Part shown: positions 44,910 through 61,823 of the stretch, piece by piece | Numbering within the stretch: the stretch's first letter is position 1 | Layout of the letters: each line of letters opens with the position of its first letter | Assembly (NCBI RefSeq): GCF_009811795.1 | Contig: NZ_BLJE01000007.1 | Coordinates: 62,001-126,000, forward strand | DNA length: 64,000 nucleotides | Direction of reading: 5' to 3' | Source of the DNA: Litoreibacter roseus | Lineage (GTDB): Bacteria > Pseudomonadota > Alphaproteobacteria > Rhodobacterales > Rhodobacteraceae | Made by a program: the position numbers and the translations under genes | The notes under the pieces: generated by a model | What the model was told of the DNA's origin: nothing | Seen by the model: the letters and a program-made list of their open reading frames with translations, nothing else | Database searches by the model: none

Positions 44910-45029
44910 GGGACATGCGTGCCACGCTTCTGAAACGGAAATAACAACGAATTATTGTGTAATGTTTCGCGCTCAATCTTTTCTTCTTGCCTGGCCTACT
45001 GTGCAGCCGATCAACGGGAGGAAAACCAA

Positions 45030-45989: not shown

Positions 45990-46014
45990 CCCGCTCCGAC
46001 CGTTGTGACGGGTC
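45988..46014 (+). promoter_or_regulatory. Intercistronic stem-loop between tctC and tctA
   Basis: GACCCG (45988-45993) and CGGGTC (46009-46014) form a 6-bp stem around a 15-nt loop directly after the tctC stop. With no T run it is more likely an mRNA stabiliser or partial attenuator favouring the binding protein. Confidence 0.4.
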
Positions 46015-46065
46015 GACAGGCTTGCCTTGTCGGCCCTACCCCCATCCAGCAGAGTAAAGAAAACG

Positions 46066-47568
46066 ATGCTCGAAGCCTTTCTAAGTGCGTTGACCCCATT
46101 CAACCTGTCGCTCGCGCTAGCGGGTGTCGTGCTCGGCACCATCATCGGGGCGCTGCCTGGCTTGTCGGCAACGATGGCGGTTGCGGTGTTGGTGCCGTTC
46201 ACCTTCACGATGGATCCGGCGTCTGGTTTGATAGCACTGGGAGCGGTTTACACGGGCGCGATCTACGGCGGGGCCTATGCTGCGATCCTCGTCAACACGC
46301 CCGGCACGCCCGCCGCAATCGCGACGTCATTGGACGGCTTTCCAATGGCCAAGCGCGGGGATGGTGATCTTGCCGTGACGATCTCCTGCTTTGCTTCGGC
46401 GTTTGGGGGCATAGTGGGCGCGCTTGCGCTTTTGTTTGTTGCGCCGCCTTTGGCCACCATCGCGCTCAACTTCGGGCCGGTGGAATACTTCTGGCTCGCT
46501 GTTTTTGGCCTGTCGCTCATCGCGGTCCTATCCAAGGGCAACACAATCAAGGGGCTGATCGGTGGCTTTATCGGGCTTTTCCTATCTACCGTTGGCTCAG
46601 CGGTGATTGGTGGCGACGTACGGTACACAATGGGCCAATTGTCGTTGTTGGGCGGCATTCACATCATTCCTGCACTGATCGGGCTGTATTGCATCCCCGT
46701 TTTGCTGGGCATGGTGGCCAACCGGGACCCGCATATCGAACGCGCAAAGTCGGGAAACGGCACACGCATCCCCGAAGCGCTTGGCACGCTTTGGCGTTCC
46801 AAGTTCAACCTCTTGCGGTCGTCCATTATTGGAACGGTTGTTGGCATCCTGCCCGCCGCGGGTGGGGCGGTGGCAGGGCTTGTCGCCTATTCAGAGGCGC
46901 GCCGCACCTCACCGGATCGCGCACGGTTCGGAAAGGGAGCGCCCGATGGCGTCGTTGCTTCCGAAAGCGCGAACTCCGCCACGGTTGGGGGTGGATTTGT
47001 CCCCACGCTCGTGCTCGGCATCCCGGGAACCCCGCCAGACGCGATTATCCTTGGCGCATTGTTGGTGCAGGGCATCCGGGTTGGACCACAGCTGTTCACC
47101 ACACAAAGCGATCTGGTCATGACCTTCACATTTGGCCTGCTGATCGCGACCGTCTTGATGATCCCGACCGGGCTGGTGATCGGACGCACCGCGTTTCGAG
47201 CGATCAGTTCGATCCCGAAATCCGTTCTCGCCCCCGCAATCGGAGTCCTGATTATGGTCGGGGCATTTGCTGTCGAGCAGAACCCAAATCACGTGGTCAT
47301 GATGGTGATCCTCGGTGGCCTTGCTTTCATCGCAGCGCGGTGGGGCTTTGAACCTTCGCCAATTGTTCTTGGCCTGATTCTTGGCCCGATCGCGGAACAA
47401 GGCTTCGTACAGGCTTGGCTGATCGGGGGAGCTTCTGGTGATCTGCTTGGGCAATACTTTGGACGTCCCATAAGCCTTGGGATCATATTCCTCACTTTAC
47501 TGACGCTCGCATGGCCGTGGTTCAGTGACTGGAAAGCGCGCCGGCGCACTTTGGAAGTGACAGAATGA
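46066..47568 (+). CDS. tctA: Tripartite tricarboxylate transporter large membrane subunit (TctA)
   Basis: The 500-residue membrane protein has about 11-12 helices and the TctA signatures GTIIGALPGLSATMAVAVLVPFTF and YGGAYAAILVNTPGTPAAIAT, repeated later in inverted form as LVLGIPGTPPDAIILGALLVQG. The frame is open from 46027, but ATG 46066 fits the family N-terminus. It is coupled to tctB by an ATGA junction. Confidence 0.92.
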   Translation: MLEAFLSALTPFNLSLALAGVVLGTIIGALPGLSATMAVAVLVPFTFTMDPASGLIALGAVYTGAIYGGAYAAILVNTPGTPAAIATSLDGFPMAKRGDGDLAVTISCFASAFGGIVGALALLFVAPPLATIALNFGPVEYFWLAVFGLSLIAVLSKGNTIKGLIGGFIGLFLSTVGSAVIGGDVRYTMGQLSLLGGIHIIPALIGLYCIPVLLGMVANRDPHIERAKSGNGTRIPEALGTLWRSKFNLLRSSIIGTVVGILPAAGGAVAGLVAYSEARRTSPDRARFGKGAPDGVVASESANSATVGGGFVPTLVLGIPGTPPDAIILGALLVQGIRVGPQLFTTQSDLVMTFTFGLLIATVLMIPTGLVIGRTAFRAISSIPKSVLAPAIGVLIMVGAFAVEQNPNHVVMMVILGGLAFIAARWGFEPSPIVLGLILGPIAEQGFVQAWLIGGASGDLLGQYFGRPISLGIIFLTLLTLAWPWFSDWKARRRTLEVTE

Positions 47569-47996
47569 ACCGCACCCTGCACCGCGATCTACCACCCGGT
47601 CTGGTCCTGATCGGCCTAGGCAGCTGGGCCCTGTGGGAAACACTTACAATGTCGGTCCTTGGTGCTGTGTTTCCGCGCTTGGCGGGCAGTGGTATGTTGG
47701 TCGGCGGGGTCATTCTGTGCATCCGGGCACTTTGGCGCGCGCCGCCCGTTCAACCGCCGGAAGGAGAGCTGACGCGTCCGCTGCTGTTTCTGGCGCTGCT
47801 GCTGGGATGGGCGGTGATGTTGCCAATCACCGGGTTTGTCCTCACCTCGGTCTGTGCGGCGCTGCTTGCGATGTTCCTGTCTGCAGACGAAAAATTTGAT
47901 GCCAAGACCGCAGCTATCCAAGCGATTTCCCTCGCCGCTCTGGTGGGCGTTGCCGCACTTCTATTTGGTCAAATTCTTATGGTGAACCTGCCATGA
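47565..47996 (+). CDS. tctB: Tripartite tricarboxylate transporter small membrane subunit (TctB)
   Basis: The 143-residue protein has four hydrophobic segments, as usual for TctB. It starts in an ATGA overlap with tctA and ends in an ATGA overlap with the LeuC-like gene, so transporter and enzyme are made together. Confidence 0.85.
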   Translation: MNRTLHRDLPPGLVLIGLGSWALWETLTMSVLGAVFPRLAGSGMLVGGVILCIRALWRAPPVQPPEGELTRPLLFLALLLGWAVMLPITGFVLTSVCAALLAMFLSADEKFDAKTAAIQAISLAALVGVAALLFGQILMVNLP

Positions 47997-49390
47997 CTGC
48001 ACGAACGCTCTATGAAAAGCTGATGGATGCACACCGGGTGCGTCAGTTCGATCCCGACACGGTCCTGCTCTACGTTGATCTGCACGTGATGAATGAATAC
48101 ACCAGCCCTCAGGCCTTTGCGGGGTTGCACTCCGCCAAGCGGCGCGTGCGCAGGCCGGAAAGGCAATTGGCGGTGGTTGATCACGTCAATCCCACCCATC
48201 CGATCAGATCCATTGCCGAGATCGAGGATGCTGGCGGGCGCTTGCAGATCGAGACGCTTGCCGAAAATTGCACGCGCCACGGGATTGAACTCATCGACCT
48301 CTTTGATCCAAGGCAGGGCATCGAGCATGTCGTCGTGCCGGATCTAGGTCTGGCGCATCCGGGAATGACGATTCTGTGTGGGGACAGCCATACTACGACC
48401 TACGGCGCTTTCGGCGCATTGGCCTACGGCATCGGTACGTCCGAGATTGAACACATCCTCGCGACGCAATGCATCGACCATACTGTATTGAAACCAATGC
48501 GCGTGTCGATCGTCGGGACAGCAGGGCCTGGTATCACTGCCAAAGACATCGTGATGGCGGTCATTGCCCGGATCGGAGCGGATGGCGCAGCAGGGCATGC
48601 CGTGGAGTTTGCAGGCGAAGCTGTAGAGGCCTTGGAGGTCGAAGGCCGCATGACGCTCTGCAACATGATCGTCGAAGGCGGGGCACGGGTGGCAATAATC
48701 GCACCGGACGCCAAGGTGCTGGACTACATCAAGGGCCGTTCGCGCGCGCCGCAAGGCGCTGATTGGCAAGCTTTGGTGTCGAGGGTGCAGGGTATGCGGT
48801 CTGACCCGCAGGCGGTTTTCGCCAAGGAGGTGACGGTCGACGCAGGCGACATCGCGCCGCTTGTCACCTGGGGCACCAGCCCCGATCAGGCATTGCCCGT
48901 CATGAGTGATGTCCCCCAACCGAAAACGGAGGCCGAAGCGCGCGCTTTGTCCTACATGGGCCTGACGGCAGGTCAACCGCTGACCTCTGTCCGGATTGAC
49001 CGGGCGTTCATCGGGTCTTGCACCAATGCGCGCCTCAGCGATTTGCGGGCTGCAGCTGACGTTCTACGCGGTCGTCGTGTGGCTGAAGGCGTGCAGGCGA
49101 TATGTGTCCCAGGGTCAAAGACGGTTCGGGCGGCGGCCGAGGCCGAAGGTCTCGACAAAGTGTTTCTTGCCGCCGGTTTCGAGTGGCGCGGCTCAGGGTG
49201 TTCCATGTGCCTTGCCATGAACGATGATGTGGCGAAACCGGGCGAGCGGCTTGCCTCGTCAACCAACCGCAACTTCGAAGGACGGCAGGGACAGGGCGCG
49301 CGGACCCACCTGATGAGCCCAACGATGGTCGCCGCCGCTGCAATCACCGGGCATCTTACCGATGTGCGCATTCTGGGAGGGCCGGCATGA
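47993..49390 (+). CDS. LeuC-like hydro-lyase large subunit, probably catabolic
   Basis: The 465-residue protein is homologous to the large subunit of 3-isopropylmalate dehydratase. The [4Fe-4S] cysteines C343, C403 and C406 match LeuC spacing. Substrate-contact segments differ from LeuC: the LYIDRH motif reads LYVDLH (Leu30 replaces Arg) and MDHNVST reads VDHVNPT. With a tricarboxylate transporter in the same operon and no other leucine genes, hydration of an imported unsaturated acid such as maleate or citraconate is more likely than leucine synthesis. That is inference. Confidence 0.82.
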   Translation: MTARTLYEKLMDAHRVRQFDPDTVLLYVDLHVMNEYTSPQAFAGLHSAKRRVRRPERQLAVVDHVNPTHPIRSIAEIEDAGGRLQIETLAENCTRHGIELIDLFDPRQGIEHVVVPDLGLAHPGMTILCGDSHTTTYGAFGALAYGIGTSEIEHILATQCIDHTVLKPMRVSIVGTAGPGITAKDIVMAVIARIGADGAAGHAVEFAGEAVEALEVEGRMTLCNMIVEGGARVAIIAPDAKVLDYIKGRSRAPQGADWQALVSRVQGMRSDPQAVFAKEVTVDAGDIAPLVTWGTSPDQALPVMSDVPQPKTEAEARALSYMGLTAGQPLTSVRIDRAFIGSCTNARLSDLRAAADVLRGRRVAEGVQAICVPGSKTVRAAAEAEGLDKVFLAAGFEWRGSGCSMCLAMNDDVAKPGERLASSTNRNFEGRQGQGARTHLMSPTMVAAAAITGHLTDVRILGGPA

Positions 49391-49968
49391 CCCCGTTCAC
49401 CACACATACCGGGATCGCGGCGGCACTGCCGATGCCGAACCTCGACACCGATGTCATAATTCCAAAGCAGTTCCTCAAGCGCATTGACCGCGAAGGTCTG
49501 GCCGAGGGTGTGTTTTTTGATTTGTTCAAGGACCAGGAGTTCGTCTTGAACCGCCCCCCATGGGACACCGCATCCATCCTGATTTGCGGCGAGAATTTCG
49601 GCTGCGGGTCCAGCCGTGAATATGCTGTCTGGGGGCTGATGCAATGGGGCATCCGCGCAATCATTGCACCTTCCTTTGCGGGCATCTTCTTTGGAAATTG
49701 TGAAAAGAATGGGCTTCTGGCCGTAGACATGCCCGCGGATGATGTCGAAGAGCTGTCATGGCTTGCGCAGGATCCGGCGACGGCACAGATTGGCATCGAT
49801 TTGCATCAGCAACGGATCATACAGGGCGGATCCAATTGGCAATTTGATATTCCTGCCGCGCGAAAGGCTCTGTTGCTAGAAGGCAAGGATCATATTGCCT
49901 GCACGTTGGAGCACGAAACTGAAATCGCCACATTTGAGAGACATCATGGCTCAGACGCCGTGCATTGA
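49387..49968 (+). CDS. LeuD-like hydro-lyase small subunit
   Basis: The 193-residue protein is the swivelling small subunit partner of the LeuC-like protein, joined by an ATGA overlap. It has NLDTDVIIPKQFLKRI and ENFGCGSSREYAVWGL, where LeuD normally has SREHA (His to Tyr), and IAPSFAGIFFGNCEKNGLL. The change in the active-site loop agrees with a substrate other than isopropylmalate. Confidence 0.82.
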   Translation: MTPFTTHTGIAAALPMPNLDTDVIIPKQFLKRIDREGLAEGVFFDLFKDQEFVLNRPPWDTASILICGENFGCGSSREYAVWGLMQWGIRAIIAPSFAGIFFGNCEKNGLLAVDMPADDVEELSWLAQDPATAQIGIDLHQQRIIQGGSNWQFDIPAARKALLLEGKDHIACTLEHETEIATFERHHGSDAVH

Positions 49969-50222: not shown

Positions 50223-50250
50223 TTGACAGGGCCAAATTGCCCCCTCTAAA
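50223..50250 (+). promoter_or_regulatory. Promoter candidate of the 50.3-61.8 kb operon
   Basis: TTGACA (50223-50228), 16 bp, then TCTAAA (50245-50250). The -35 is consensus; the -10 is a moderate match. The operator palindrome follows immediately, so a bound repressor would block the start site. Confidence 0.5.
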
Positions 50251-50263
50251 TTGGTACTACCAA
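50251..50263. promoter_or_regulatory. GntR (FadR-type) operator candidate
   Basis: TTGGTA-C-TACCAA is a perfect palindrome with 6-bp arms and contains the TGGTNNNACCA pattern typical of FadR-subfamily GntR regulators. A FadR-type regulator is encoded in the same operon at 58472. An overlapping repeat CTACC-N5-GGTAG extends to 50271. Confidence 0.65.
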
Positions 50264-50306
50264 ACCGGTAGAATCAAATCGGTAAAATGCCACTAGGGAG
50301 GAAATG

Positions 50307-51344
50307 ATGGCATATTTTTGTAAGCTGGCCGCTATGGCTGGCGCGGCGATAGCTGCGTTCACAGCAATGGGTCCGGCCCCCAGTTACGCTGAAGATGACG
50401 ACATCAAAATCGCCGTTGCGATGAAGACACAGGTGCAGCGTCGTTGGGCATTTGACCGCAAAGCCATGGAGCAAGAAGCCGAGCGTCAAGGCGTGGAGTT
50501 GATCTTCCAGTATGCCAATGACAATCCGACACTTCAGGCATCCCAAGTTGAAAACCTGCTCAGCCAGCAGCCCGATGTGCTGATCCTTGTGCCTGTCGAC
50601 AGTGCGGCCGCGGGGTCCATCGTGCGGAGCGCACAAGAAGCAGGTGTCCCGGTGGTGGGCTACGATATTGGCGTCTCAACCGCCAAGCTGGACTACTTCG
50701 TCATGCGCAACAACGGGCTGGTGGGTGAGCTGCAAGCCCAGGCCGCAATGGAATTTGCTCCCAAGGGCAATTTTGCGCTAATCAAAGGCGACCCTGGCAA
50801 CGATGTGGCACAGTCCATTGCCGCGTCCTATGACCGCATTCTACCAAACGCCGATGGGGTCGAAATTGTTTTTGACCAATTCGTGAATGGCTGGAGCCCG
50901 CAGACGGCGCTGTCCAACGCGGAAAACATTTTGTCAGCCAACGATGACAACGTGAAAGCGTTTGTGACAGCGAATGATGGTATGGCATCAGGAGTGGCCC
51001 AGGCAATCATCGCACGCGACTTGGCAGGCAAGGTGTTTCTGTCCGGTCTCGATGCGGAATCCGCAAACCTGCGCCTGATTGCCGACGGCGTGCAGACGAT
51101 GACCGTGTGGACTGATTTAACCGATCACGGCATTGCCGCCGTCAAGGCGGCGGTGTCGATCGCAAAAGGCGAAGAGCCTACATTTTCCGAGATGGTTGAC
51201 CTTGGGGCGGGTGAAGTGCCGACGCACCTGGTCATCGTGGAAGAAATCAACTCCGATAATCTCTGTGACTTTGTGGTTTCCGGTGCTCCCGAAGGCTGGA
51301 CGTCGGTTGACGAGGTCTTTGACGACCCATCCGCGTGTAACTGA
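50307..51344 (+). CDS. Sugar-type ABC transporter substrate-binding protein
   Basis: The 345-residue protein has a Sec signal (KLAAMAGAAIAAFTAMGPAPSYA, cleaved before EDDD) and the XylF/RbsB periplasmic fold (IKIAVAMKTQVQRRWAFDRKAM; QPDVLILVPVDSAAAGSIVRSAQ; FVTANDGMASGVAQAI). Two adjacent ATGs exist; the second (50307) is better spaced from AGGGAGG. It supplies the importer encoded by the next two genes. The ligand is probably a carbohydrate or sugar-like molecule. Confidence 0.88.
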   Translation: MAYFCKLAAMAGAAIAAFTAMGPAPSYAEDDDIKIAVAMKTQVQRRWAFDRKAMEQEAERQGVELIFQYANDNPTLQASQVENLLSQQPDVLILVPVDSAAAGSIVRSAQEAGVPVVGYDIGVSTAKLDYFVMRNNGLVGELQAQAAMEFAPKGNFALIKGDPGNDVAQSIAASYDRILPNADGVEIVFDQFVNGWSPQTALSNAENILSANDDNVKAFVTANDGMASGVAQAIIARDLAGKVFLSGLDAESANLRLIADGVQTMTVWTDLTDHGIAAVKAAVSIAKGEEPTFSEMVDLGAGEVPTHLVIVEEINSDNLCDFVVSGAPEGWTSVDEVFDDPSACN

Positions 51345-51356
51345 CACAAAGCCAAG

Positions 51357-51385
51357 GTCCTGCGCGGGCTCAGCCCGCGCAGGAC
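51357..51385 (+). promoter_or_regulatory. Strong intercistronic hairpin after the binding-protein gene
   Basis: Arms GTCCTGCGCGGGCT and AGCCCGCGCAGGAC are perfectly complementary over 14 bp around one central base (the real loop would be a few bases wider). It begins 12 bp after the stop and lies before the ATPase start. No T run follows. It probably protects the binding-protein mRNA from 3' decay and raises its level above the membrane components. Confidence 0.75.
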
Positions 51386-51409
51386 ACTTCCACATTTCGG
51401 GTTGAGACA

Positions 51410-53005
51410 ATGACACAAGACGTTCGACTTTCAATCGAAGGCATAACCAAGGAATTTGGCGGCGTGCCAGCCGTGTCCGAGGCAAGGTTTTCGGTTGGCG
51501 CTGGAGAGACGTTGGTTCTACTGGGCGAGAATGGCGCGGGCAAATCGACACTTATGAAAGTGCTCGCTGGCGTGTATCCACTAGGCACCTATGCTGGATC
51601 GTTTCGTCTGGACGGGGTTGAGGCCCAGTTTCGAAACGTCCGTGAAGCCGAACAGAACGGGGTCGTTCTGGTTCCCCAAGAGCTTCACGTTGCCCCCAAC
51701 CTTTCGATCGCTGAAAACATCTTGATGGGAATGCTGCCAACGCGCTTTGGCATTGTCGACCGGGCGAAAGCCCGCCAAAAGGCAAAGCAATGTCTCGATT
51801 TTTTCGAACTTGATGTCGACCCAGATGTGCCAGCCAAAAGCCTAAGCGCGTCAGAACAACGGTTAATCATGATATCGGCTGCCTTGGCGAAGTCAGCAGC
51901 CAAGGTTTTGATCCTCGATGAGCCGACAGCATCACTCACAGATGGCGAGGCGGAGCACCTTTTTGAGAAGATGGAGCAGGTGCGCGCTACAGGCGTGGCT
52001 ACCATCTACATTACACACCGCCTCGATGAAATCGAACGGGTCTGTGATCGGGCCGTGGTCATGCGCAATGGGGCGGTCGTTTTAGAAACACCGGATGTGC
52101 AAGGGCGGCGCAGCGAGTTTATCCGCGCGATGATCGGACATGATCCTGCAGTTGACGCGTCGCTAAACCGCGCGGCGCCGGGCGCAGAGATCCTTGAGGT
52201 TCGTGATCTTTGGGTCCGAGGCAGCTCCGCCACAAGTAAGCCCCATGTCTGCGGCGTTTCGCTCAGCGCGCGCGCCGGCGAGATCCTCGGCCTTTTCGGC
52301 TTGGTCGGCGCAGGCCGGACCGAGCTTGCGAGCGCCGTGTTCGGGGCATGGCGGGGCGACGTGACTGGCGATGTGCGCATTAACGGCGTCGCAGGGCGGC
52401 CGACATCACCTGGTGAAGGGATTGCGCGCGGGGTCGGCATGCTGACCGAAGACCGGAAACGCTCTGGCCTGATCGAAGGCCAGTCCGTTTTGCGCAATAT
52501 CAGCGCAGCCAGCCTTGGGCGCGTCTGCAAGGCGGGCGTGATCCATTCCAAGAACGAACGAGCGCGTGCCGAATCCTTGGCCAGGGACCTGGACCTGCGG
52601 CCGCCAAATATCGACGCAATGGTCGAGAATTTTTCGGGCGGCAATCAGCAAAAGATCATGCTCGCGCGCTGGATGGCTACAGACCCGGATCTACTCATCG
52701 TGGATGAGCCGACCTACGGCGTCGATGTCGGTGCGCGCTACGCGATTTACGAACGCCTCAGGGCCCTTTCGAAGGACGGCACGGCGATCCTGATGATCTC
52801 CAGTGACATCGAAGAGATTATGCATGAAGCAGACCGCATTCTTGTTATGTACAAAGGCCAGATCGCAGGTGAATTCGAGCCAGGCGTGTCGCGTCGTGAG
52901 CTTATGGCGGCGGCGACCGGCGAAACGCACGTTCCTTCGTTTGATGCCGTCCCAACTACCATTCCGTTCAAACAAGAGAAACAGAAGATTGGAGTCGCGA
53001 TATGA
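51410..53005 (+). CDS. Sugar ABC transporter ATPase with two ABC domains
   Basis: The 531-residue protein is a tandem ATPase of the XylG/RbsA/MglA type. Domain 1 has Walker A GENGAGKST near residues 43-51 and Walker B VLILDEPTASL. Domain 2 has the degenerate nucleotide site usual for this family (GLVGAGRTELA) and signature FSGGNQQKIMLARWM with LLIVDEPTYGVDVGAR. Its stop overlaps the permease start as ATGA. Confidence 0.92.
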   Translation: MTQDVRLSIEGITKEFGGVPAVSEARFSVGAGETLVLLGENGAGKSTLMKVLAGVYPLGTYAGSFRLDGVEAQFRNVREAEQNGVVLVPQELHVAPNLSIAENILMGMLPTRFGIVDRAKARQKAKQCLDFFELDVDPDVPAKSLSASEQRLIMISAALAKSAAKVLILDEPTASLTDGEAEHLFEKMEQVRATGVATIYITHRLDEIERVCDRAVVMRNGAVVLETPDVQGRRSEFIRAMIGHDPAVDASLNRAAPGAEILEVRDLWVRGSSATSKPHVCGVSLSARAGEILGLFGLVGAGRTELASAVFGAWRGDVTGDVRINGVAGRPTSPGEGIARGVGMLTEDRKRSGLIEGQSVLRNISAASLGRVCKAGVIHSKNERARAESLARDLDLRPPNIDAMVENFSGGNQQKIMLARWMATDPDLLIVDEPTYGVDVGARYAIYERLRALSKDGTAILMISSDIEEIMHEADRILVMYKGQIAGEFEPGVSRRELMAAATGETHVPSFDAVPTTIPFKQEKQKIGVAI

Positions 53006-54150
53006 ATGGGCTTGCCCTTAGCAAAACCGACGTTGGCAAAGGGCTGATTACCTGGTCGAGCCTTGCGTCTAAACAGGCGCTTGCGATGGTTGGCGTGTTC
53101 CTAGTTCTGGTGATCACGTTCCAGATCATGTCCGATGGATTGTTTCTGACGCCGCGCAATTTAACCTTGCTGATGCGTCAGGGCGCGATCGTATCGATCG
53201 TCGCGATGGGTGTCGCCATTTTGATCATCAAAGGCGAGATTGACCTGTCGACCGGCAGCGCCGTCTATCTCTGCGGCGTTGCCGCGGCATTAATGCAGAC
53301 CAAACTTGGCCTGCCAGTTGTGCCAACGGTCGTCTTGACCATTTTGTGCGGCATCGTTCTGGGAGCATGGCAAGGTGTTTGGGCTGTCGTTCTCGGGGTG
53401 CCTTCATTTGTCGTTACACTCGCGGGCCTGCTCGCGTTCCGTGGCACCGGTTACTACCTCACTGATGCGGCCACCTTGGCACCGATGTCTCCAAGCTACA
53501 CGGCGTTGAGCGAGGGCTTTGTGTCAATCCCGATGACCTACACTATACTGGGTGCAGTTTGGCTTTTGAGTTCAGCTTATCTCTTAATGACGGCTCGGCA
53601 AAGCCATGCATCAACTCCAGTAATCCCCCTGGTAGTCTTGACTGCAGTGATCGGCGTCAGCGCGTGGATCTTTGTCGGCTATCGCGGCATTCCGAACGCC
53701 GTTTTGTGGGTCGCCGTCTGTTTCGCGATCCTTTGGTTCCTGATGGATCGCACGGCGTATGGTCGGAACTCCTACTTGATTGGCTCCAATCATGAAGCGG
53801 CGCGACTAGCCGGCATTCCAATCAAAAAGTATCTGCTGTCCGGCTTTGTGCTCATGGGGGTTCTTTATGGCGTCGCCGCCACCCTTATGACCGCGCGGCT
53901 CAGTGCGTCGACGCCGACATCTGGCCTCTATCTGGAGCTCGACGCGATCGCCGCCGCCGTGATTGGCGGGATATCGCTCCGCGGTGGGATTGGCAAGGTC
54001 GGAGGCGCACTGGTTGGCGCAGCCCTGCTTGTCACTATCGATAACGGGATGAGCATCCTGAACATCTCGACCTTCGTCCAGATGATGGTCAAGGGCATGG
54101 TTCTGCTCTTGGCACTCGCAGCGGACGTCACACTGAACAAAAAGAAATGA
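53002..54150 (+). CDS. Sugar ABC transporter permease
   Basis: The 382-residue membrane protein has 9-10 helices and the RbsC/XylH-type motifs (SIVAMGVAILIIKGEIDLSTGS; GVPSFVVTLAGLLAFRGTGYYL; EAARLAGIPIKKYLLSGFVLMG; LDAIAAAVIGGISLRGGIG). It is overlapped by 4 nt at both ends by the ATPase and the enolase-superfamily gene, so import and catabolism are translationally linked. Confidence 0.92.
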   Translation: MNGLALSKTDVGKGLITWSSLASKQALAMVGVFLVLVITFQIMSDGLFLTPRNLTLLMRQGAIVSIVAMGVAILIIKGEIDLSTGSAVYLCGVAAALMQTKLGLPVVPTVVLTILCGIVLGAWQGVWAVVLGVPSFVVTLAGLLAFRGTGYYLTDAATLAPMSPSYTALSEGFVSIPMTYTILGAVWLLSSAYLLMTARQSHASTPVIPLVVLTAVIGVSAWIFVGYRGIPNAVLWVAVCFAILWFLMDRTAYGRNSYLIGSNHEAARLAGIPIKKYLLSGFVLMGVLYGVAATLMTARLSASTPTSGLYLELDAIAAAVIGGISLRGGIGKVGGALVGAALLVTIDNGMSILNISTFVQMMVKGMVLLLALAADVTLNKKK

Positions 54151-55343
54151 CAAGGGACGCTGCAATCATGAACCCAAGAGACATCTCTTCGCCTGACCGC
54201 CTGCTCAAAATCAGATCGGTCGAAGCCTTTCCGATCAGCAGCCCGGTCAAAAACGGCCCTATTCTCGGCATAGGCCAACTGACCAAGCGCGAATCTGTGG
54301 TGGTCCGGATCGAAACCGAGGACGGGATCGTTGGTTACGGAGAAGCGCATCACGGACGAGCCGCCGCATCGGTGGCACATCTGATCAACCACACTCTGCA
54401 ACACTTCGCGGTCGGTAAGTCGGCGGCGGACGTGGTTGGGATTTGGGATGCCATCTATACGATGCAGCTTAAAAGCCACGGCATGGGTGCCGCGTCGAGC
54501 ATCGGGATGAGCGGTATCGATCTGGCATTGTGGGACATACGCGGCAAGGCCGTCGGGTGGCCACTCTACCGGCTTCTGGGCGGCATGTCGCAGGACATTC
54601 CAGCCTATGCGGGTGGCGTTTCTCTGGGTTGGCAGCCGGCCGCGCAGCTTGTGGACGAAGTGCAAGCCGCGCTGGACGAAGGCTACAAAGCTGTGAAGCT
54701 TCGGGTTGGCGACAATCATGTGCGCGACGTGGAACGTGTTGCAGCGGTCCGGGCAGCCATCGGTGATGATGTGTCGATCATGGTCGACGCCAATACAAAC
54801 TACGACGCGGCAACGTTCCGCCGCGCGTTGCCCGGCTTTGTCGCGCACGATGTGTTCTGGATCGAAGAACCATTTGCGCCGCACGACATCGACAACTATC
54901 GCTTGGCGGCGCACCTTTCTTCGATCCCGCTGGCAGCCGGGGAAAATCACTACACCCGCTTCGAGTTCAATCGCGTTATCGAAGACGGAAAGATCACGAT
55001 ACTACAGCCAGATGTCTCAAAAACCGGTGGGATCACTGAATCCATGCGCATTGCGGCCGCCGCATCCGCGTGGAAAAGGATGATCTGCCCGCATACCTCG
55101 ACCACGGGTCTCAACATGGCAGCCAGCGTGCATCTGCTCTGTGCCATCGACAACGCCGGATACTTCGAAGGCGACGTCTCTGTCAGCAACCCGTTTCGAG
55201 ATGAATTGACGAGCACGCCCTACATGGTTGGTGCCAACGGATGTGTCCGTCCGCTTGAGCAACCCGGGATCGGTGTCGAAGTCGACGAAGATTACCTGCG
55301 TGGCAATCCGACAACGGAGGGACTTTCCTATGCTGCACATTGA
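54147..55343 (+). CDS. Enolase-superfamily enzyme, mandelate racemase subgroup
   Basis: The 398-residue protein should abstract an alpha proton from a carboxylate held by Mg2+. Metal ligands are D214 (MVDAN), E240 (WIEEP) and E266 (AGENH). The two-base site is K184 in KLRV on one face and H316 (CPHTSTTG) on the other, with D289 supporting. R186 replaces the second Lys of the KxK motif. This pattern occurs in acid-sugar dehydratases and some racemases. With a sugar importer upstream and an aldehyde dehydrogenase downstream, dehydration of an aldonic or uronic-type acid is plausible but unproven. Confidence 0.82.
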   Translation: MTRDAAIMNPRDISSPDRLLKIRSVEAFPISSPVKNGPILGIGQLTKRESVVVRIETEDGIVGYGEAHHGRAAASVAHLINHTLQHFAVGKSAADVVGIWDAIYTMQLKSHGMGAASSIGMSGIDLALWDIRGKAVGWPLYRLLGGMSQDIPAYAGGVSLGWQPAAQLVDEVQAALDEGYKAVKLRVGDNHVRDVERVAAVRAAIGDDVSIMVDANTNYDAATFRRALPGFVAHDVFWIEEPFAPHDIDNYRLAAHLSSIPLAAGENHYTRFEFNRVIEDGKITILQPDVSKTGGITESMRIAAAASAWKRMICPHTSTTGLNMAASVHLLCAIDNAGYFEGDVSVSNPFRDELTSTPYMVGANGCVRPLEQPGIGVEVDEDYLRGNPTTEGLSYAAH

Positions 55344-56790
55344 TGCATTCGTACCTGGCGATAGTCCATGCCTCGTGATCGGAGACAGCTGGATACACGC
55401 AGATCAGCGCGAATATGTTCCAGTCATAAACCCCGCGACTGAAGAGACTGTTTGTCATGCACCGGTTGCGACAGCGGATGATATTCAGCTGGCTATCGCC
55501 ACCTCTGTGCAAGGATTTGAAACGTGGCGCAGAACGCTGCCGATTGACCGGTCGCGTGTGCTGCGCGGTGCAGCGGAACGGATCCGCGAGCGCGCAGACG
55601 ACATCGCGAGGCTCATGACACTCGAGCAAGGCAAACCCCTGGCCGAGGCGCGTGCGGAGACGCTGTCCACAGCAGACCTCTTCGAGTGGTTCAGCGAGGA
55701 GGCGCGCCGCTCTTACGGGCGTATTGTAGCGAGTCAGGTGCCTGGCGTTGCGCTCAATGTGATGGCCGAACCGATTGGGCCTGTGGCTGCTTTCACAGCC
55801 TGGAACTTTCCGATGGTGGTTCCTGGCAGAAAGATCGCAGCGGCCATCGCTGCAGGATGTTCGATAATCATTAAACCGTCGGAGGAAACACCTCTCTGTG
55901 TCGTCGAAATAGCGCGCTGCCTCCGCGATGCCGGGCTGCCCAATGGTGTTTTGGCCGTTCTCTACGGTGATCCGGCGCAAATATCCGAGACGCTGCTGGC
56001 CGCTCCTGAGATCCGCAAGGTCGCGATCACGGGGTCTACCCGGGTCGGTAAGATTCTTGCACGGCTTGCTGCCGACACGATGAAACCCGGCACCTACGAG
56101 CTGGGTGGTCACAGCCCAGTTCTGGTCTTTGGCGATTCGGATGCCGAGGGTGCCGCGGCCCAGCTTGCCGTGGCGAAATACAGGAACGCGGGGCAGGTCT
56201 GCACCTCGCCGTCACGCTTTTTTGTGCATCGTGACATCGTAGAATCGTTCACCGAAAGCTACCTTGCCCACGTCGACAAGATCGTCGTTGGCGATGGTCT
56301 CCAGGACGGTGTGGCGATGGGGCCGCTGTCGAATGAACGCCAGTTGCTACATATCGTGGACCTGGTTTCGGACGCTGTGACGCATGGCGCGCAGCTGGCC
56401 GCAGGCGGTCATCGTATTGGCAATACCGGCTATTTCTATGAGCCTACCGTTCTTTTGAACGTGCCTGATACCGCTCGCATCATGCGTGAAGAGCCATTCG
56501 GTCCAGTGACGGCCATTCAGACCTTCGACACTACAGATGACGCGATTGCCAAGGCCAACATGCTCGACGTTGGCCTAGGGAGTTACGTGTTCTCGTCCTC
56601 GCCCGAGACAATGATCCGTGTTGCCGGTGAGCTGCAAGCGGGGATGGTGGGTGTGAATACCTGTTTGATCGCCCATCACGAGGCCCCCTTCGGCGGCGTC
56701 AACCAAAGCGGATATGGTCGAGAGGGTGGGATCGAAGGGCTGGACGCGTACCAAATCAAGAAACTTGTCGCGGCCAGGGCCGTGGCCTGA
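55330..56790 (+). CDS. Aldehyde dehydrogenase (semialdehyde-type)
   Basis: The 486-residue NAD(P)-dependent enzyme has the cofactor motif FTAWNFPMVVPGRKIAAAIAAG, the general-base Glu in YELGGHSP near 257 and the catalytic Cys in NAGQVCTSPSRF near 290. The sequence is of the succinate-/glutarate-/2-oxoglutarate-semialdehyde type. ATG 55330 lies inside the end of the preceding gene, with GGAGGGA at a good distance. It should oxidise an aldehyde intermediate of the pathway to an acid. Confidence 0.88.
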   Translation: MLHIDAFVPGDSPCLVIGDSWIHADQREYVPVINPATEETVCHAPVATADDIQLAIATSVQGFETWRRTLPIDRSRVLRGAAERIRERADDIARLMTLEQGKPLAEARAETLSTADLFEWFSEEARRSYGRIVASQVPGVALNVMAEPIGPVAAFTAWNFPMVVPGRKIAAAIAAGCSIIIKPSEETPLCVVEIARCLRDAGLPNGVLAVLYGDPAQISETLLAAPEIRKVAITGSTRVGKILARLAADTMKPGTYELGGHSPVLVFGDSDAEGAAAQLAVAKYRNAGQVCTSPSRFFVHRDIVESFTESYLAHVDKIVVGDGLQDGVAMGPLSNERQLLHIVDLVSDAVTHGAQLAAGGHRIGNTGYFYEPTVLLNVPDTARIMREEPFGPVTAIQTFDTTDDAIAKANMLDVGLGSYVFSSSPETMIRVAGELQAGMVGVNTCLIAHHEAPFGGVNQSGYGREGGIEGLDAYQIKKLVAARAVA

Positions 56791-56818
56791 AAACGAAGTT
56801 ACACGGAGGAATTTAGAG

Positions 56819-57919
56819 ATGAAACTTGGAATGTTCATGATGCCGCTGCACCCGCCGCATCGCCCGATGCACGAAACCTACGACGAAGATCTTGCCAAGG
56901 TCGTGCACGCTGACAAGGTGGGATTTGACGAGGTCTGGATCGGCGAGCACTTCACCGCATCGACCGAGCCGATTGCCAATGCAATGACGTTTCTTGCCGC
57001 GGCGCTGCCGTTGACCAAGAACATCATGCTTGGCACCGGCGTTGTGAATCTGCCGAACCATAACCCGGTGATCGTGGCGGCTGAGGCGGCACAGTTCGAC
57101 CACATGGCCAAAGGCCGCTTCCTCTTCGGGATCGGTCCTGGCGGGCTTGCCAGCGATTTTGAGGTTTTTGGCAACGAAGATCCCGAGGCGCGCGGCGAAA
57201 AGATGCTCGAGGCGTATGAGGCGATACGCTACATCTGGGCCAATGATCCGCCGTATCGCTTCCAGGGCAAGCACTACAACTTCCACATCACTGAAAACAT
57301 CATTCCCGAAATGGGTATCGGCTTTATGCCCAAGCCTTATCAGAACCCGGCCCCCGATATCGGGCTGAGCGCGATGAGCCCGTTTTCCGGCAGTGTGAAA
57401 CAGGCGGCCAGAAAAGGTTGGAGCCCGATTTCGGCAAACTTCGTGCCCGAATACAGCGTAGCCAGTCACTGGAAAAAATTCCTTGAAGGCTGCGAAGAGG
57501 CAGGGATAGCTCCAGACGGCAATCGGTGGCGTGTCGCCCGCAACATCATTATCGCGGACAGCGATTCCGAGGCCGAAGACCTCGCTCACGATCCAATGGG
57601 CAGCACGCACTATTACTTCGATTATCTGTGGAAAGCCCTGTGCGGTGCGAATTACAGCGTAGCAATGAAGCCCGATCCAAAGATGGCCGATGAAGATGTA
57701 AAGCTGGACGATGTCATCTCGCAACTGGTGATCTACGGCAGCAAGGAGACTGTAACGGAGAAGTTGATCGCCTTCCGCGAAAACGTTGGGCCGTTTGGAA
57801 CGCTCTTGCAGGCCGCGGTCGATGGGTCCGGCAAAAACGGTGATGCGGAACGCCGAACAATGGCAGCGATGTCTGATTTTGTCATGCCGCGCCTGGCGGG
57901 AGCACTGGTTGATGCCTAG
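56819..57919 (+). CDS. Luciferase-like flavin monooxygenase (LLM class)
   Basis: The 366-residue protein belongs to the bacterial luciferase-like family, nearest by motif to limonene-monooxygenase-type members (KLGMFMMPLHPPHRPMHETYDEDL; GFDEVWIGEHFT; AAEAAQFDHMAKGRFLFGIGPGGLASDFEVFG). These use FMNH2 from a separate reductase to insert oxygen, often cleaving C-S, C-N or C-C bonds or making epoxides and lactones. The reductase is encoded next with an 8-nt overlap. ATG 56819 follows CGGAGGA. Confidence 0.87.
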   Translation: MKLGMFMMPLHPPHRPMHETYDEDLAKVVHADKVGFDEVWIGEHFTASTEPIANAMTFLAAALPLTKNIMLGTGVVNLPNHNPVIVAAEAAQFDHMAKGRFLFGIGPGGLASDFEVFGNEDPEARGEKMLEAYEAIRYIWANDPPYRFQGKHYNFHITENIIPEMGIGFMPKPYQNPAPDIGLSAMSPFSGSVKQAARKGWSPISANFVPEYSVASHWKKFLEGCEEAGIAPDGNRWRVARNIIIADSDSEAEDLAHDPMGSTHYYFDYLWKALCGANYSVAMKPDPKMADEDVKLDDVISQLVIYGSKETVTEKLIAFRENVGPFGTLLQAAVDGSGKNGDAERRTMAAMSDFVMPRLAGALVDA

Positions 57920-58469
57920 CGCGGAGCATATTGAATCGAGCGCTAATTCCGCCGATGCGTACGGCGAAGCAGTGGAGGGATTTCGGCATGCCATGTCGAA
58001 ATACCCCGCAACAGTGAACGTTATTACGACCGGATCCGGCGAGGCGCGGCGAGGCTTCACTGCTACAGCTGTTTTCAGTGCGACGATGGATCCGCCTGCC
58101 ATTGGGATTTGTGTTAACAAGTCCGTCGATGCGCATGACGCGCTTAGGCCGGACTCGTCCTTCTGCGTGAATGTTCTGGCGGTGGAGCAGCAAGGTATCG
58201 CCAACCGCTTTGCAGCACGTGATGGGTCGAAAGGGGCCAGCCGGTTCGAACACGATACATGGGACATTCTCGTCACAGGATCGCCATGCCTCCGCGGTGC
58301 CTTGGCGAATGTGGATTGCAAGGTGTCCCAGTTCATCGACATCGGGACGCACACGCTGATCCTCGGTGACGTGGTGAGCGTCCGGTCCGATCGTGTTCAA
58401 AACCCCTTGTTGTATTTTGACCGTGGGTTCCGGCAGTTGGCGACCGAAAGCTTGGAAATGGGAGAGTAA
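57912..58469 (+). CDS. Flavin reductase partner of the LLM monooxygenase
   Basis: The 185-residue protein has the FMN-binding split-barrel fold of the flavin reductase-like (HpaC) family (FRHAMSKYPATVNVITT; GFTATAVFSATMDPPAIGICVNKS; FCVNVLA; GDVVSVRSD). It supplies reduced FMN to the monooxygenase it overlaps. The start at 57912 overlaps the monooxygenase stop; the longer frame to 57786 is internal to that gene. Confidence 0.85.
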   Translation: MPSAEHIESSANSADAYGEAVEGFRHAMSKYPATVNVITTGSGEARRGFTATAVFSATMDPPAIGICVNKSVDAHDALRPDSSFCVNVLAVEQQGIANRFAARDGSKGASRFEHDTWDILVTGSPCLRGALANVDCKVSQFIDIGTHTLILGDVVSVRSDRVQNPLLYFDRGFRQLATESLEMGE

Positions 58470-58471
58470 GA

Positions 58472-59188
58472 ATGAAGCGGGTCGATAACCAGGTGACGAA
58501 GACAATTTCGAACCTTGTTCATTTCCTCAATCAACGAGGATACGAGCCAGGCGAACGTCTGCCATCCGAGCGGATATTGGCGGAGCGGTTTGAAGTCACA
58601 CGCGGCGTTATCCGAGAGGCGTTGATGTCGCTTGAGTTGATGCGCTACATCCAGCGGCGCCCGAATTCGGGCATCTTCATGCGGGCCGAAGACGAGGCGG
58701 AAACCAGTATCGAAGCGCTGGTGATGTACTCGAACATCGGTATCCCCTTTGGACATGACACTGATCTGCAATGTCTCGAAGTCAGACGTTTGCTTGAAGT
58801 GCAGGCAGTGCGGATCGCGTGCGAACGTCGAACAGATGAAGACTTGGCAGAGCTAACGCGCATTGCAGAGGTTGCAGCCCACAGCACGGGAGATGGCTCG
58901 GATCTGTCAAAGCTGGACTACGACTTCCATATGCAGATATTCGAGGCCACTCAGAACAAGGTGCTCGTGCAACTTGTGACGCCGTTCTACCTGATGTCCG
59001 AGATGCGGCGGGAACGCTTCTTTCGCAACAAGGAGAATTTCTTGAATAGTCACCAGCAGCACCTGCAACTGATTGATGCAATAGCCGCGCGTGACACAAA
59101 GGCGGCGGCTGGCCTCATGGATCGGCACATTGGCAATGTCGAAAGCTATTTTGGCGCATCTGAGGATGCCGAAGAATTCGCTGACTAG
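58472..59188 (+). CDS. GntR family regulator, FadR subfamily (FCD domain)
   Basis: The 238-residue protein has the GntR winged helix at residues 8-75 (YEPGERLPSERILAERFEVTRGVIREALMSLELM) and a helical FCD effector domain with the metal-binding type residues in DYDFHMQIFEATQN and H near the C-terminus (MDRHIGNVE). It is encoded inside the operon, 2 nt after the flavin reductase. The TTGGTACTACCAA palindrome at the operon promoter fits its subfamily, so it is probably the local repressor, released by a pathway acid. Confidence 0.9.
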   Translation: MKRVDNQVTKTISNLVHFLNQRGYEPGERLPSERILAERFEVTRGVIREALMSLELMRYIQRRPNSGIFMRAEDEAETSIEALVMYSNIGIPFGHDTDLQCLEVRRLLEVQAVRIACERRTDEDLAELTRIAEVAAHSTGDGSDLSKLDYDFHMQIFEATQNKVLVQLVTPFYLMSEMRRERFFRNKENFLNSHQQHLQLIDAIAARDTKAAAGLMDRHIGNVESYFGASEDAEEFAD

Positions 59189-59215
59189 CGCGAACGGCAA
59201 AAGGGAGGCCCAATC

Positions 59216-59872
59216 ATGTTTTTTGGTGGATCATTTGACGTCGTATCGCGCGTCGAACCGGTCAGACAGCTTGCGTCGACAGAAGAGATTATCGCGGAAT
59301 GTAGTGCGGGGCAAATGTTCATCCTGGTGGACAACCCGGATCGTGAAAATGAGGGCGATCTGGTGATCGCCGGCGCTTATGCAACACAGAGCGCAATCGC
59401 CTTTATGGCGCGGCTTGGGCGCGGCTTGATCTGCGTTGCCGTGCCTGGCGCGGTCGCGGACCGGTTTGAGTTAGCGTTCCAAGACAGTAGCAATGTAGGC
59501 GAAGGCTATACCGCGTTCACAACGTCAATCGACGCAAGATACGGGATTACAACTGGGATATCCGCACAGGACCGGGCGGCAGCCATCGATATCTTGAACG
59601 ATCCGGAAAAAAGTGCCGCCGATATTGTCACCCCGGGTCACATTTTTCCTCTGGTCGCAAAAAGCGGCGGTGTACTCGAACGCCCCGGCCATACGGAAGC
59701 GAGTGTTGATCTCGCCAAGGCCGCGGGTGCCGGTGAGACCGCCGTAATCTGCGAAATCCTTGGCGATGACGGCGAGCCCTTGCGCTTGCCTGCCCTGATC
59801 GACTTTGCGGGCAAGCACGGCATGAAGATCGGCACAATTGCGGACCTCATTGCATGGCGGGAAGCGCAGTGA
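59216..59872 (+). CDS. 3,4-dihydroxy-2-butanone-4-phosphate synthase (RibB-like), stand-alone
   Basis: The 218-residue protein matches the RibB domain (FILVDNPDRENEGDLVIAGAYAT; GLICVAV; FTTSIDARYGITTGISAQDRAAAI; GHIFPLVAKSGGVLERPGHTEASVDLA). The reaction turns ribulose 5-phosphate into the four-carbon precursor of riboflavin plus formate. It lacks the RibA domain usual in RibBA fusions. In an operon with a flavin-consuming monooxygenase it probably boosts flavin supply; a repurposed catabolic lyase is a less likely alternative. Confidence 0.85.
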   Translation: MFFGGSFDVVSRVEPVRQLASTEEIIAECSAGQMFILVDNPDRENEGDLVIAGAYATQSAIAFMARLGRGLICVAVPGAVADRFELAFQDSSNVGEGYTAFTTSIDARYGITTGISAQDRAAAIDILNDPEKSAADIVTPGHIFPLVAKSGGVLERPGHTEASVDLAKAAGAGETAVICEILGDDGEPLRLPALIDFAGKHGMKIGTIADLIAWREAQ

Positions 59873-59917
59873 AGCTGTGCTTGGCACCACTCGACTAGGA
59901 TTTGACGGCAGGCTGTC

Positions 59918-61474
59918 ATGAAAACCACTTCACCCAGTCCCGTGTTCCGGGATATGGGACAACACGGCTTTGATCCCGAAACTGATTTGTCTTCTGATGT
60001 TCTGATCATTGGCAGCGGAATGGGAGGCGCTGCATTTGCTGCCGGCCTAGCCTCGACCGGTCTCAAAGTACGCATGCTCGAGGCGGGTGATTTCATCCCG
60101 GACGCGCCGGACAACCGGACGCCGCAGGCCGTCTATCACGAAATGCGCTTTCACAGCCGGGATCGGTGGCTTGACAAAAACGACAGAGCCTTCGTGCCCG
60201 GCACCTATGAATGGGTAGGCGGGAATAGTAAGTTCTTCGGAGCCGTCCTATACCGCTTTCGCGAAATCGATTTTCATGAACGGCACTATGCCGAGGGCAT
60301 CTCACCGGCTTGGCCTTTCGATTACGGTGAACTGCAGCCTTGGTATGAAAAAGCGGAGCGTATGCTACATGTTCGGGGCGTTACGGGTGAGGACTCCACG
60401 GAACCTTCGGGGCCGTATGGATACGACTTCCCCAAAGTTCCGGATGAGCCTGCTATTGCCGAGTTACGCCGCAGGCTGGAGATAGACGGAGGGATCGGCA
60501 CGGCGACACTGCCGCTCGGTGTCGACACAGACGCATGGCTTGCCGAGGGGCAGGGGCCCTGGGACGGCTACCCTGACGCGACCTGTCAGGGCAAGATGGA
60601 GGCGGAATCCAGATTGCTTCCGCTCGCAGCGCAAAACAAGCGCTTTAAGCTGATCACCAGCGCCCGTGCGACGCGCCTGCTTGTGGAGCCGGGTGGGTCG
60701 CGGATCGCGAGTGTGGTCTTTGAACGCGACGGACGGGAATGGACCCACAACTCAAAGCTTGTCGTTGTTGCGGCAGGTGCAGTGAATAGTGCGGCTCTGC
60801 TTTTGCGGTCAGGGGTTGCAAACAGCTCTGATCAGGTCGGGCGCAACTTCATGAACCACATATTCAGCGTTCTGATCGCCATCGATCCACGTTTCCGCAA
60901 CACAAGCGCCTATCAGAAGACCATCACATCAAACGCCTTCTACGATACGCAAAACGACACCGGCCAAGCACTGGGCAATATCCAGCTGCTTGGGCGGCTC
61001 TATGGCGACACGCTTGCACATGACGTCAAGTATTTGCCGCGCTTTGCATTGAACTGGATCGCAGATCACTCGGCGCATTTCTTTCTGCAAACCGAAGATG
61101 TTCCAAAGCCGGAGAACCGAGTTACGTTGAAAGGTGACCGGATCAAGCTGGAATGGCACCGCGACCACATCCCCACCCATCAGACCTTTGTCAAACGGGC
61201 GAAGCAGCTATTGCGCGATGCGCGGTTTCCTATCGTTTTGCATCGGTTGATGGATGAGGCACTGCCCTATCACCAATGCGGCACCGTATGTATGGGAAGC
61301 GATTCGAAAACCTCGGTATTGAATCCTCAAAATGTCAGCTGGGATCACCCCAATCTGATAGTTGCGGACGCCAGCGCTCTTGTTTCGTCCGCTGGCGTGA
61401 ACCCGGCACTGACGGTTGCCGCTCTTTCCCTGCGGGCTGCGCATCATGCGCTTGATAGGTTCGCCCAACTCTAA
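59918..61474 (+). CDS. GMC family oxidoreductase
   Basis: The 518-residue FAD enzyme has the dinucleotide motif GSGMGG at 32-37, YEWVGGNSKFFGAVLYRFRE, the catalytic His near residue 452 (YHQCGTVCMG) and its Asn partner near 494 (SAGVNPALTVAA). The C-terminal block is like that of sugar (glucoside/pyranose/gluconate) dehydrogenases of the GMC family. No Tat or Sec signal is visible, so it probably acts in the cytoplasm. It would oxidise a hydroxyl of the imported substrate to a ketone or lactone. Confidence 0.87.
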   Translation: MKTTSPSPVFRDMGQHGFDPETDLSSDVLIIGSGMGGAAFAAGLASTGLKVRMLEAGDFIPDAPDNRTPQAVYHEMRFHSRDRWLDKNDRAFVPGTYEWVGGNSKFFGAVLYRFREIDFHERHYAEGISPAWPFDYGELQPWYEKAERMLHVRGVTGEDSTEPSGPYGYDFPKVPDEPAIAELRRRLEIDGGIGTATLPLGVDTDAWLAEGQGPWDGYPDATCQGKMEAESRLLPLAAQNKRFKLITSARATRLLVEPGGSRIASVVFERDGREWTHNSKLVVVAAGAVNSAALLLRSGVANSSDQVGRNFMNHIFSVLIAIDPRFRNTSAYQKTITSNAFYDTQNDTGQALGNIQLLGRLYGDTLAHDVKYLPRFALNWIADHSAHFFLQTEDVPKPENRVTLKGDRIKLEWHRDHIPTHQTFVKRAKQLLRDARFPIVLHRLMDEALPYHQCGTVCMGSDSKTSVLNPQNVSWDHPNLIVADASALVSSAGVNPALTVAALSLRAAHHALDRFAQL

Positions 61475-61505
61475 TTCTCTAAGCTAAGAAAAGGACCCCA
61501 GAAAA

Positions 61506-61823
61506 ATGTTGCTTCACTGCGTTTACCTGTCGTTGAAACCCGAGACTGAAGATCGTGATTTGGCTGAGCTTATGTCAGCCTTGTCCAGCTTGTCGGACGA
61601 AATTGACGGTATGGGCTGCGTTGATCATGGCCCAAATCGAGACTTTGAAAGCAAATCCGAGGACTTTCCATATGGTTTCGTAATTCCCTTCAATAACGCT
61701 GAAGCGCTTGCGCGTTATGCTGAAAATCCAAAGCACAAGCGGATTGCGGAGGGCTTGATTGCAAGCTGTAAAGGCGGCGCCGACGGCATTGTAGTCTTTG
61801 ACCTGGAAACTGGGGCATCATAG
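61506..61823 (+). CDS. Dabb-domain (stress-responsive A/B barrel) protein
   Basis: The 105-residue protein has the dimeric alpha/beta barrel pattern (LLHCVYLSLKPETEDRDLAELMSALSSL; YGFVIPFNNAEALARYAENPKHKRIAEGL). Members range from small binding proteins to cofactor-free enzymes. It closes the operon, 31 bp after the GMC gene, which implies a role with the ketone product or its isomerisation, but no active-site residues can be assigned. Confidence 0.78.
   Translation: MLLHCVYLSLKPETEDRDLAELMSALSSLSDEIDGMGCVDHGPNRDFESKSEDFPYGFVIPFNNAEALARYAENPKHKRIAEGLIASCKGGADGIVVFDLETGAS

Follow-up and report, generated by a model that had tools for sequence, protein, structure and literature searches.

The sulfo-ASMO pathway couples an ABC importer to a two-component FMN-dependent luciferase-like monooxygenase (LLM) that acts on the imported sugar (PMC9594981, PMC12890257). 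The diketocamphane monooxygenases (DKMO), which are type II Baeyer-Villiger monooxygenases (BVMO) of a camphor plasmid, provide a second point of reference; His46 and Glu52 line their active site and, in 3,6-DKMO, His10 and Ser44 touch the flavin (PMC4631483). An eleven-gene operon of Litoreibacter roseus resembles both. It occupies positions 50304-61823, + strand, of a 64,000-nucleotide (nt) stretch (NCBI RefSeq assembly GCF_009811795.1, contig NZ_BLJE01000007.1, positions 62,001 to 126,000), here called the window. The operon is real, coherent and uncharacterised, and sulfo-ASMO is the nearest described plan. It is tentatively read as an inducible operon for the oxygenolytic catabolism of a sugar-like polyhydroxy compound (a keto- or deoxy-sugar, sugar lactone or cyclitol); its parts, regulation and LLM branch rest on sequence, and the substrate, regiochemistry and reaction are inferred. 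The features concerned are the following.

50223-50252, + strand: sigma-70-like promoter, TTGACA-18-TAAATT, with 10 of 12 consensus matches
50251-50263: putative operator, the perfect 13-bp palindrome TTGGTACTACCAA, overlapping the -10 end of the promoter
50304-51344, + strand: periplasmic binding protein of 346 amino acids (aa), Peripla_BP_4, CUT2/XylF-like but diverged
51410-53005, + strand: CUT2 ABC ATPase with two ABC domains, 531 aa (Pfam, NCBIfam)
53002-54150, + strand: CUT2 permease, BPD_transp_2, 382 aa (Pfam)
54147-55343, + strand: mandelate-racemase-group (MR) enzyme of the sugar-acid-dehydratase type; the start may be later
55330-56790, + strand: aldehyde dehydrogenase (ALDH), succinate-semialdehyde dehydrogenase (SSADH)-like; the longest reading frame runs from 55228
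56819-57919, + strand: LLM flavin monooxygenase, type II BVMO-like, 366 aa, Bac_luciferase
57912-58469, + strand: flavin reductase, PF01613; RutF scores 134 bits, under its cut-off of 255
58472-59188, + strand: GntR/FCD regulator, probable repressor of the operon (Pfam, alignment and search for relatives)
59216-59872, + strand: RibB, a second genomic copy of DHBP synthase; TIGR00506, 189.6 bits, over its cut-off of 177
59918-61474, + strand: GMC oxidoreductase with an H452/N495 pair; an export signal is not apparent by eye
61506-61823, + strand: Dabb protein, PF07876

The list of open reading frames (ORFs) bears out the eleven frames, single strand and gene order given in an earlier note on this DNA, and Pfam agrees with its family names, Dabb included: Peripla_BP_4, ABC_tran (two stretches), BPD_transp_2, MR_MLE, Aldedh, Bac_luciferase, Flavin_Reduct, GntR with FCD, DHBP_synthase, GMC and Dabb. 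The intergenic distances along the operon are 65, -4, -4, -14, 28, -8, 2, 27, 45 and 31 nt, so that the spacing of 2-45 nt or overlap proposed previously holds for all later gaps and fails at the first only (65 nt). Position 50223, previously given as the start of the block, is the first base of the sigma-70-like -35 box, and the first ORF begins at 50304.

In the proposed route, the CUT2 importer would bring in the sugar-like compound, the GMC enzyme would turn a ring CHOH into a ketone beside another CHOH (an alpha-hydroxyketone), and FMNH2 made by the reductase would let the LLM place oxygen between the C=O and the CHOH. On chemical grounds the resulting acyl-hemiacetal should break spontaneously into a carboxylic acid and an aldehyde, so that a lactonase, an aldolase and a kinase would not be needed. 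The ALDH would oxidise the semialdehyde, the MR enzyme would remove water from the hydroxy acid, giving a 2-keto-3-deoxy acid, and RibB would raise the flavin supply. Dabb, whose family has a fold class in common with rhamnose mutarotase, may equilibrate ring forms. Pfam detects neither an aldolase nor a kinase in the eleven proteins, as had been claimed; the accompanying claim that no dehydratase is present appears doubtful, given an MR enzyme whose sequence lies nearest to sugar-acid dehydratases. It is unlikely, on our estimate, that the operon encodes an undescribed route that takes in a cyclitol or sugar and opens it by GMC and BVMO-like C-C cleavage, bypassing kinases and aldolases and served by a dedicated RibB. 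If such a route is true, a bacterial two-component flavin monooxygenase would be applied to a sugar-type nutrient by C-C cleavage; to our knowledge sulfo-ASMO, with C-S cleavage, is the sole sugar case of such a monooxygenase. Activity leads would also follow for a large LLM clade (79 rows in the tree described below) and for the MR branch of PDB entry 3bjs, whose solved structure carries a superfamily name only. A check for prior assignment to a characterised pathway found no description of the gene set in the open-licence literature, a weak negative given that scope.

Evidence that the block is a single unit comes from the sequences upstream of its first gene and from the relatives of its regulator. 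Promoter-like matches in the region occur at chance frequency (five found against a shuffle mean of 6.9); unlike a bare match of this kind, the pair at 50223-50252 overlaps a conserved operator. Relatives of the GntR regulator were found in five plasmid records (41-49% identity) and in L038, a locus of a distant Pseudomonadota metagenome-assembled genome (MAG; 48%), and these six loci were scanned for the pattern TTGGTNNNACCAA. Perfect copies are present once in L149, from a Shinella plasmid, and twice, in tandem, in L190; copies with one mismatch number two each in L188, L191, L189 and L038 (one of the last upstream of the MR gene) and one in L190. Across the 1,618,767 bases of the other loci of at least 10 kb, perfect copies are absent and one-mismatch copies number 17. 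Counting the window, 6 of 6 distinct loci have a site no more than 300 nt upstream of the first operon gene, compared with 16 of 5358 stretches, but both the 300-nt limit and the gene taken as first were fixed once the whole loci had been scanned, and L191 is nearly a copy of L188. The whole-locus numbers are fairer: ten sites in about 108 kb (five loci, with the window and L191 excluded) against about 1.1 expected. The presence of the same or a one-mismatch palindrome upstream of operons in loci with GntR relatives makes it very likely that the block is one auto-regulated unit. The operon is thus probably switched as a whole by its own GntR regulator, which would repress it until a pathway compound binds, and the earlier proposal of one co-regulated unit gains support from a promoter-operator pair tied to this GntR type.

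In its own genome, TTGGTNNNACCAA occurs at five places and its backwards control at three, which is near chance, and TTGGTACTACCAA is the sole occurrence with its core. A regulon beyond the operon was rejected on these counts, and a second target is not claimed. A search at an E-value of 1e-40 through 40 other genomes (20 from the same genus) yielded no GntR of the operon's type, consistent with recent acquisition. The GntR-operator pair offers a direct handle on the system, and it marks further operons with the same regulator, one of them on a plasmid of Xanthobacter dioxanivorans.

Operators with one mismatch each occur on plasmids at L188 13484-13510, L191 13484-13510 and L189 17347-17442; in X. 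dioxanivorans YN2 and Pseudorhizobium flavum they stand 5' of ABC-type genes. On the YN2 plasmid the genes behind the operator continue with GMC and ALDH genes, and GlcF-type genes are close by; in Ancylobacter ZM13 an insertion element comes after the operator.

These plasmids bear on the main alternative, in which the LLM hydroxylates a sugar-like molecule at a carbon beside O or N, the product breaks down to an aldehyde that the ALDH oxidises, and the operon serves a glycol ether, N-glycoside or N-heterocycle. The same type of GntR and operators accompanies sugar-ABC, GMC, ALDH and CaiB CoA-transferase genes in YN2, with the GlcF-type genes nearby, and does so again in Ancylobacter polymorphus ZM13, where the arrangement is disrupted by the insertion element; both strains presumably grow on 1,4-dioxane, as the species name of YN2 suggests for that strain. 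Moreover, relatives of the LLM accompany RidA, D-amino-acid dehydrogenase (DadA), malate synthase or polysaccharide-deacetylase-type genes (41-42% identity for those beside RidA, DadA or malate synthase), and the combination of LLM, flavin reductase and SSADH resembles the pyridine and trigonelline routes. Oxygenation beside O or N is nevertheless considered somewhat unlikely.

Conservation of the whole set is limited. The LLM loci examined number 76, of which 71 come from one genome-contig scan and five are from plasmids; the scan used short peptide patterns and is a sample, and many loci end at contig ends. With a match defined as tblastn at 1e-8 and query coverage of 40% or more, MR was found in 8 of the 71 and 2 of the 5, ALDH in 4 and 4, flavin reductase in 17 and 3, RibB in 1 and 2, and GntR in 2 and 0, respectively. 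No second genome among those searched showed all eleven genes. L038 has MR (56%), ALDH (49%), LLM (54%) and GntR (48%) in the window's order, and the Shinella plasmid combines a sugar importer with MR (63%) and GntR (49%). In a plasmid cluster of Phaeobacter sp. G2 (L026), flavin reductase, LLM (53%) and RibB are adjacent, and genes for SSADH and a sugar ABC transporter lie close by; it differs in its CaiB CoA-transferase, thiolase and sigma-54 regulator, and the window's MR, GMC, GntR and Dabb are unmatched there. Trinickia (L036) has the series AKR-reductase-LLM-ALDH, AKR being an aldo-keto reductase. Among the 295 genomes of the family, own genome included, the LLM is matched in 24 at 1e-60 and the MR enzyme in 4 at 1e-70.

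The two-component FMN monooxygenase predicted earlier was found as the LLM with its adjacent PF01613 reductase. The LLM is nearest to DKMO, itself a luciferase-fold FMN oxygenase with a separate reductase, and its H44 and E50, matching DKMO His46 and Glu52, are present in 83 of 83 aligned rows, query included. Its closest affinity is with the type II Baeyer-Villiger branch, and Baeyer-Villiger activity itself is a prediction. Structure prediction, run on the LLM only, gave a mean per-residue confidence (pLDDT) of 33.8 from the single sequence and succeeded with a 30-row alignment. A tree was built from 79 rows, after exclusion of the 4 of 83 shorter than 330 aa, and rows were labelled as ALDH-linked where a neighbouring ALDH had at least 41% identity, which leaves the weaker L030 (33%) and L072 (29%) unlabelled. 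The seven ALDH-linked rows need three changes on this tree (shuffled mean 6.8; 0 of 500 shuffles as low), and six of the seven, the window's included, fall within one 27-row group, with L027 apart.

Of the bonds named in the earlier note (C-S, C-N, C-C or ether), the nearest solved relatives of the LLM favour C-C over C-S, and this touches a further alternative, in which the LLM strips sulfite from an imported sulfosugar. Importer, LLM and PF01613 flavin reductase together match the sulfo-ASMO plan, and that pathway (PMC9594981) is a published counter-example to the statement that LLM enzymes are not normally required in sugar pathways. The window's LLM, however, is of another branch and not a close SsuD homolog, the operon lacks the aldo-keto reductase (AKR) SquF (PF00248, none in the eleven proteins) and a glycoside hydrolase, and it adds GMC, MR, ALDH, RibB and Dabb. 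Membership of sulfo-ASMO was rejected on the wrong LLM branch and the absent AKR. A cluster of Ruegeria sp. TM1040, which links a different LLM, AKR, flavin reductase and tripartite ATP-independent periplasmic (TRAP) transporter genes to Dabb, lends the sulfosugar alternative some support, and it is still judged very improbable. The earlier picture is partly supported: the unit, the importer, the monooxygenase, the ALDH and the lack of aldolase and kinase stand, the absence of a dehydratase is doubtful, and the statement on LLM enzymes in sugar pathways has its counter-example.

The Ruegeria cluster lies on a megaplasmid (L151, 132-6315) in the order GntR, LLM, AKR, flavin reductase, TRAP transporter, Dabb, and is possibly a sulfo-ASMO-like cluster with a Dabb gene. 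Its Dabb-LLM adjacency was dropped as support for Dabb as an LLM partner, its LLM being of another branch (25% over 162 aa).

The remaining enzymes have affinities with sugar pathways. The carbohydrate-type importer was confirmed as belonging to the CUT2 families. Its binding protein is xylose-like yet scores below the cut-offs of both XylF (223 bits; cut-off 389.55) and PRK10355 (202 bits; cut-off 504), with 196 bits against PDB entry 3m9w and a top identity on plasmids of 37%; none of 294 other genomes of the family matches it at 1e-70. Membership of the XylFGH xylose importer or the Weimberg pathway was rejected on the missed family cut-offs. The MR enzyme scores 413 bits against 3bjs, which is identical in sequence to a gene of a Polaromonas sp. 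JS666 plasmid and has the same metal and base residues; the JS666 gene lies beside binding proteins of TTT transporters, SSADH and D-2-hydroxyacid dehydrogenases, and an LLM is not annotated in 19 kb. The metal ligands, K-x-K/R lysine and H/D dyad of the MR enzyme are intact: KxR, QPD and PH/AH occur in all seven relatives of its own type (alignment by eye, leaving out an L158 row translated in an incorrect frame, and L064 and L079 as members of another MR branch). For the ALDH, the match to TIGR01780 reaches 465 bits (cut-off 646), and the SSADH-type enzyme suits the semialdehyde substrate suggested for it earlier. The nearest relatives of the GMC enzyme in PDB are FAD glucose and fructose dehydrogenases.

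Such affinities would also fit a fairly ordinary non-phosphorylative pathway from aldose to aldonate, in which GMC acts as a C1 sugar dehydrogenase, MR dehydrates the aldonate, ALDH is a ketoglutarate-semialdehyde dehydrogenase, and the LLM, reductase and RibB are added for a side substrate. The GMC relatives, the XylFGH-like importer and the best NCBIfam matches of the MR enzyme, galactonate and arabinonate dehydratase, point this way. The cut-offs tell against it, since those of XylF, of the aldonate dehydratases (top score 201 bits for galactonate dehydratase; cut-off 311) and of ketoglutarate-semialdehyde dehydrogenase (NF042993, 327, cut-off 770; NF052305, 322, cut-off 750) are all missed. 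In addition, ALDH and LLM stand between MR and GntR in both the window and L038, and a second dehydratase or aldolase is not among the eleven genes. An aldonate pathway is judged unlikely.

Several observations weigh against the proposed route. The binding protein, own-type GMC and Dabb are matched in 0 of the 76 LLM loci, so that the partnership of GMC and Dabb with this LLM has been seen once only, and three plasmid LLM loci carry a choline-dehydrogenase-like GMC gene instead. L038 has no flavin reductase match in 21 kb, and LLM relatives are also placed in plainly different pathways. Identity between the LLM and DKMO is only 27%, the operon is of sugar type and not from a camphor plasmid, and enzymes of this one fold catalyse many reactions. 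The His, though not the Glu, of the His/Glu pair is also found in the luciferase 8cbb. His10 and Ser44 of 3,6-DKMO are not retained (M8 and G42 in the LLM); they also differ in 2,5-DKMO, the second camphor isozyme, and so are not a defining trait. Glucose dehydrogenases oxidise C1, and their place among the nearest GMC relatives counts here as well.

GMC, and in part Dabb, derive, on the neighbourhoods of their relatives, from a different sugar-operon context. GMC relatives in rhizobia and kin (42-51% identity) lie in a CUT1 sugar operon (L115-L117, L140, L141, L145), and a Dabb gene occurs within 3 kb in L116, L140 and L141 and is not annotated in L115 and L117. Unlike the window, this operon has a CUT1 importer, CoA-transferase and glycerate kinase, and no LLM was seen in it. 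A GMC match is present in 6 other genomes of 385 in the class, and in 2 of these 6 it is linked to Dabb. The operon recurs (L115-L117, L140, L141) as Gfo/Idh, AtoDA-type CoA-transferase, enoyl-CoA hydratase, ALDH, CUT1 importer, GMC and a second GMC, sometimes with Dabb and glycerate kinase added.

Close relatives of Dabb adjoin pdxJ and/or acpS, a housekeeping-like position, in 12 of 37 Dabb loci (L129, L130, L154, L156, L157, L165, L167, L170-L172, L174, L175). Dabb as a specific LLM partner is weakened by these neighbours and by its lack of a match at the 76 LLM loci.

In five alphaproteobacterial MAGs (L060, L062, L064, L071, L079), an MR enzyme of another branch (33-35% identity to the operon's) directly precedes an LLM relative, and the chromosomal surroundings are conserved. 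In the window's family, LLM relatives of 40-43% identity (L109 8944-13409, called by Pfam; L112 7163-14477, by eye) lie beside an alpha/beta hydrolase and a polysaccharide-deacetylase gene, with additional flavin reductase and TRAP-type genes in L112; possibly these clusters represent another undescribed pathway.

Within the operon, the 65-nt gap between the binding-protein and ATPase genes contains a strong 13-pair hairpin.

51357-51385: hairpin between the two genes; its folding z is -4.48, and none of 200 shuffles folds as well

Hairpins are often found behind binding-protein genes. Rfam at gathering thresholds gave no match anywhere in the window, and a flavin-controlling riboswitch was rejected on this result. 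Upstream of the operon lie the following features.

43021: LysR-like gene (by eye), at the start of the block 43021-49968
44955-49968: TctC-, TctA- and TctB-like genes (by eye), followed by LeuC and LeuD, which exceed their family cut-offs

With its LysR-like gene, Tct-like genes and LeuCD-type dehydratase pair, the block 43021-49968 is a separate carboxylate operon. On the 3' side, the operon is followed by two opposite-strand genes, the nearer of AraC type by Pfam and the farther similar by eye.

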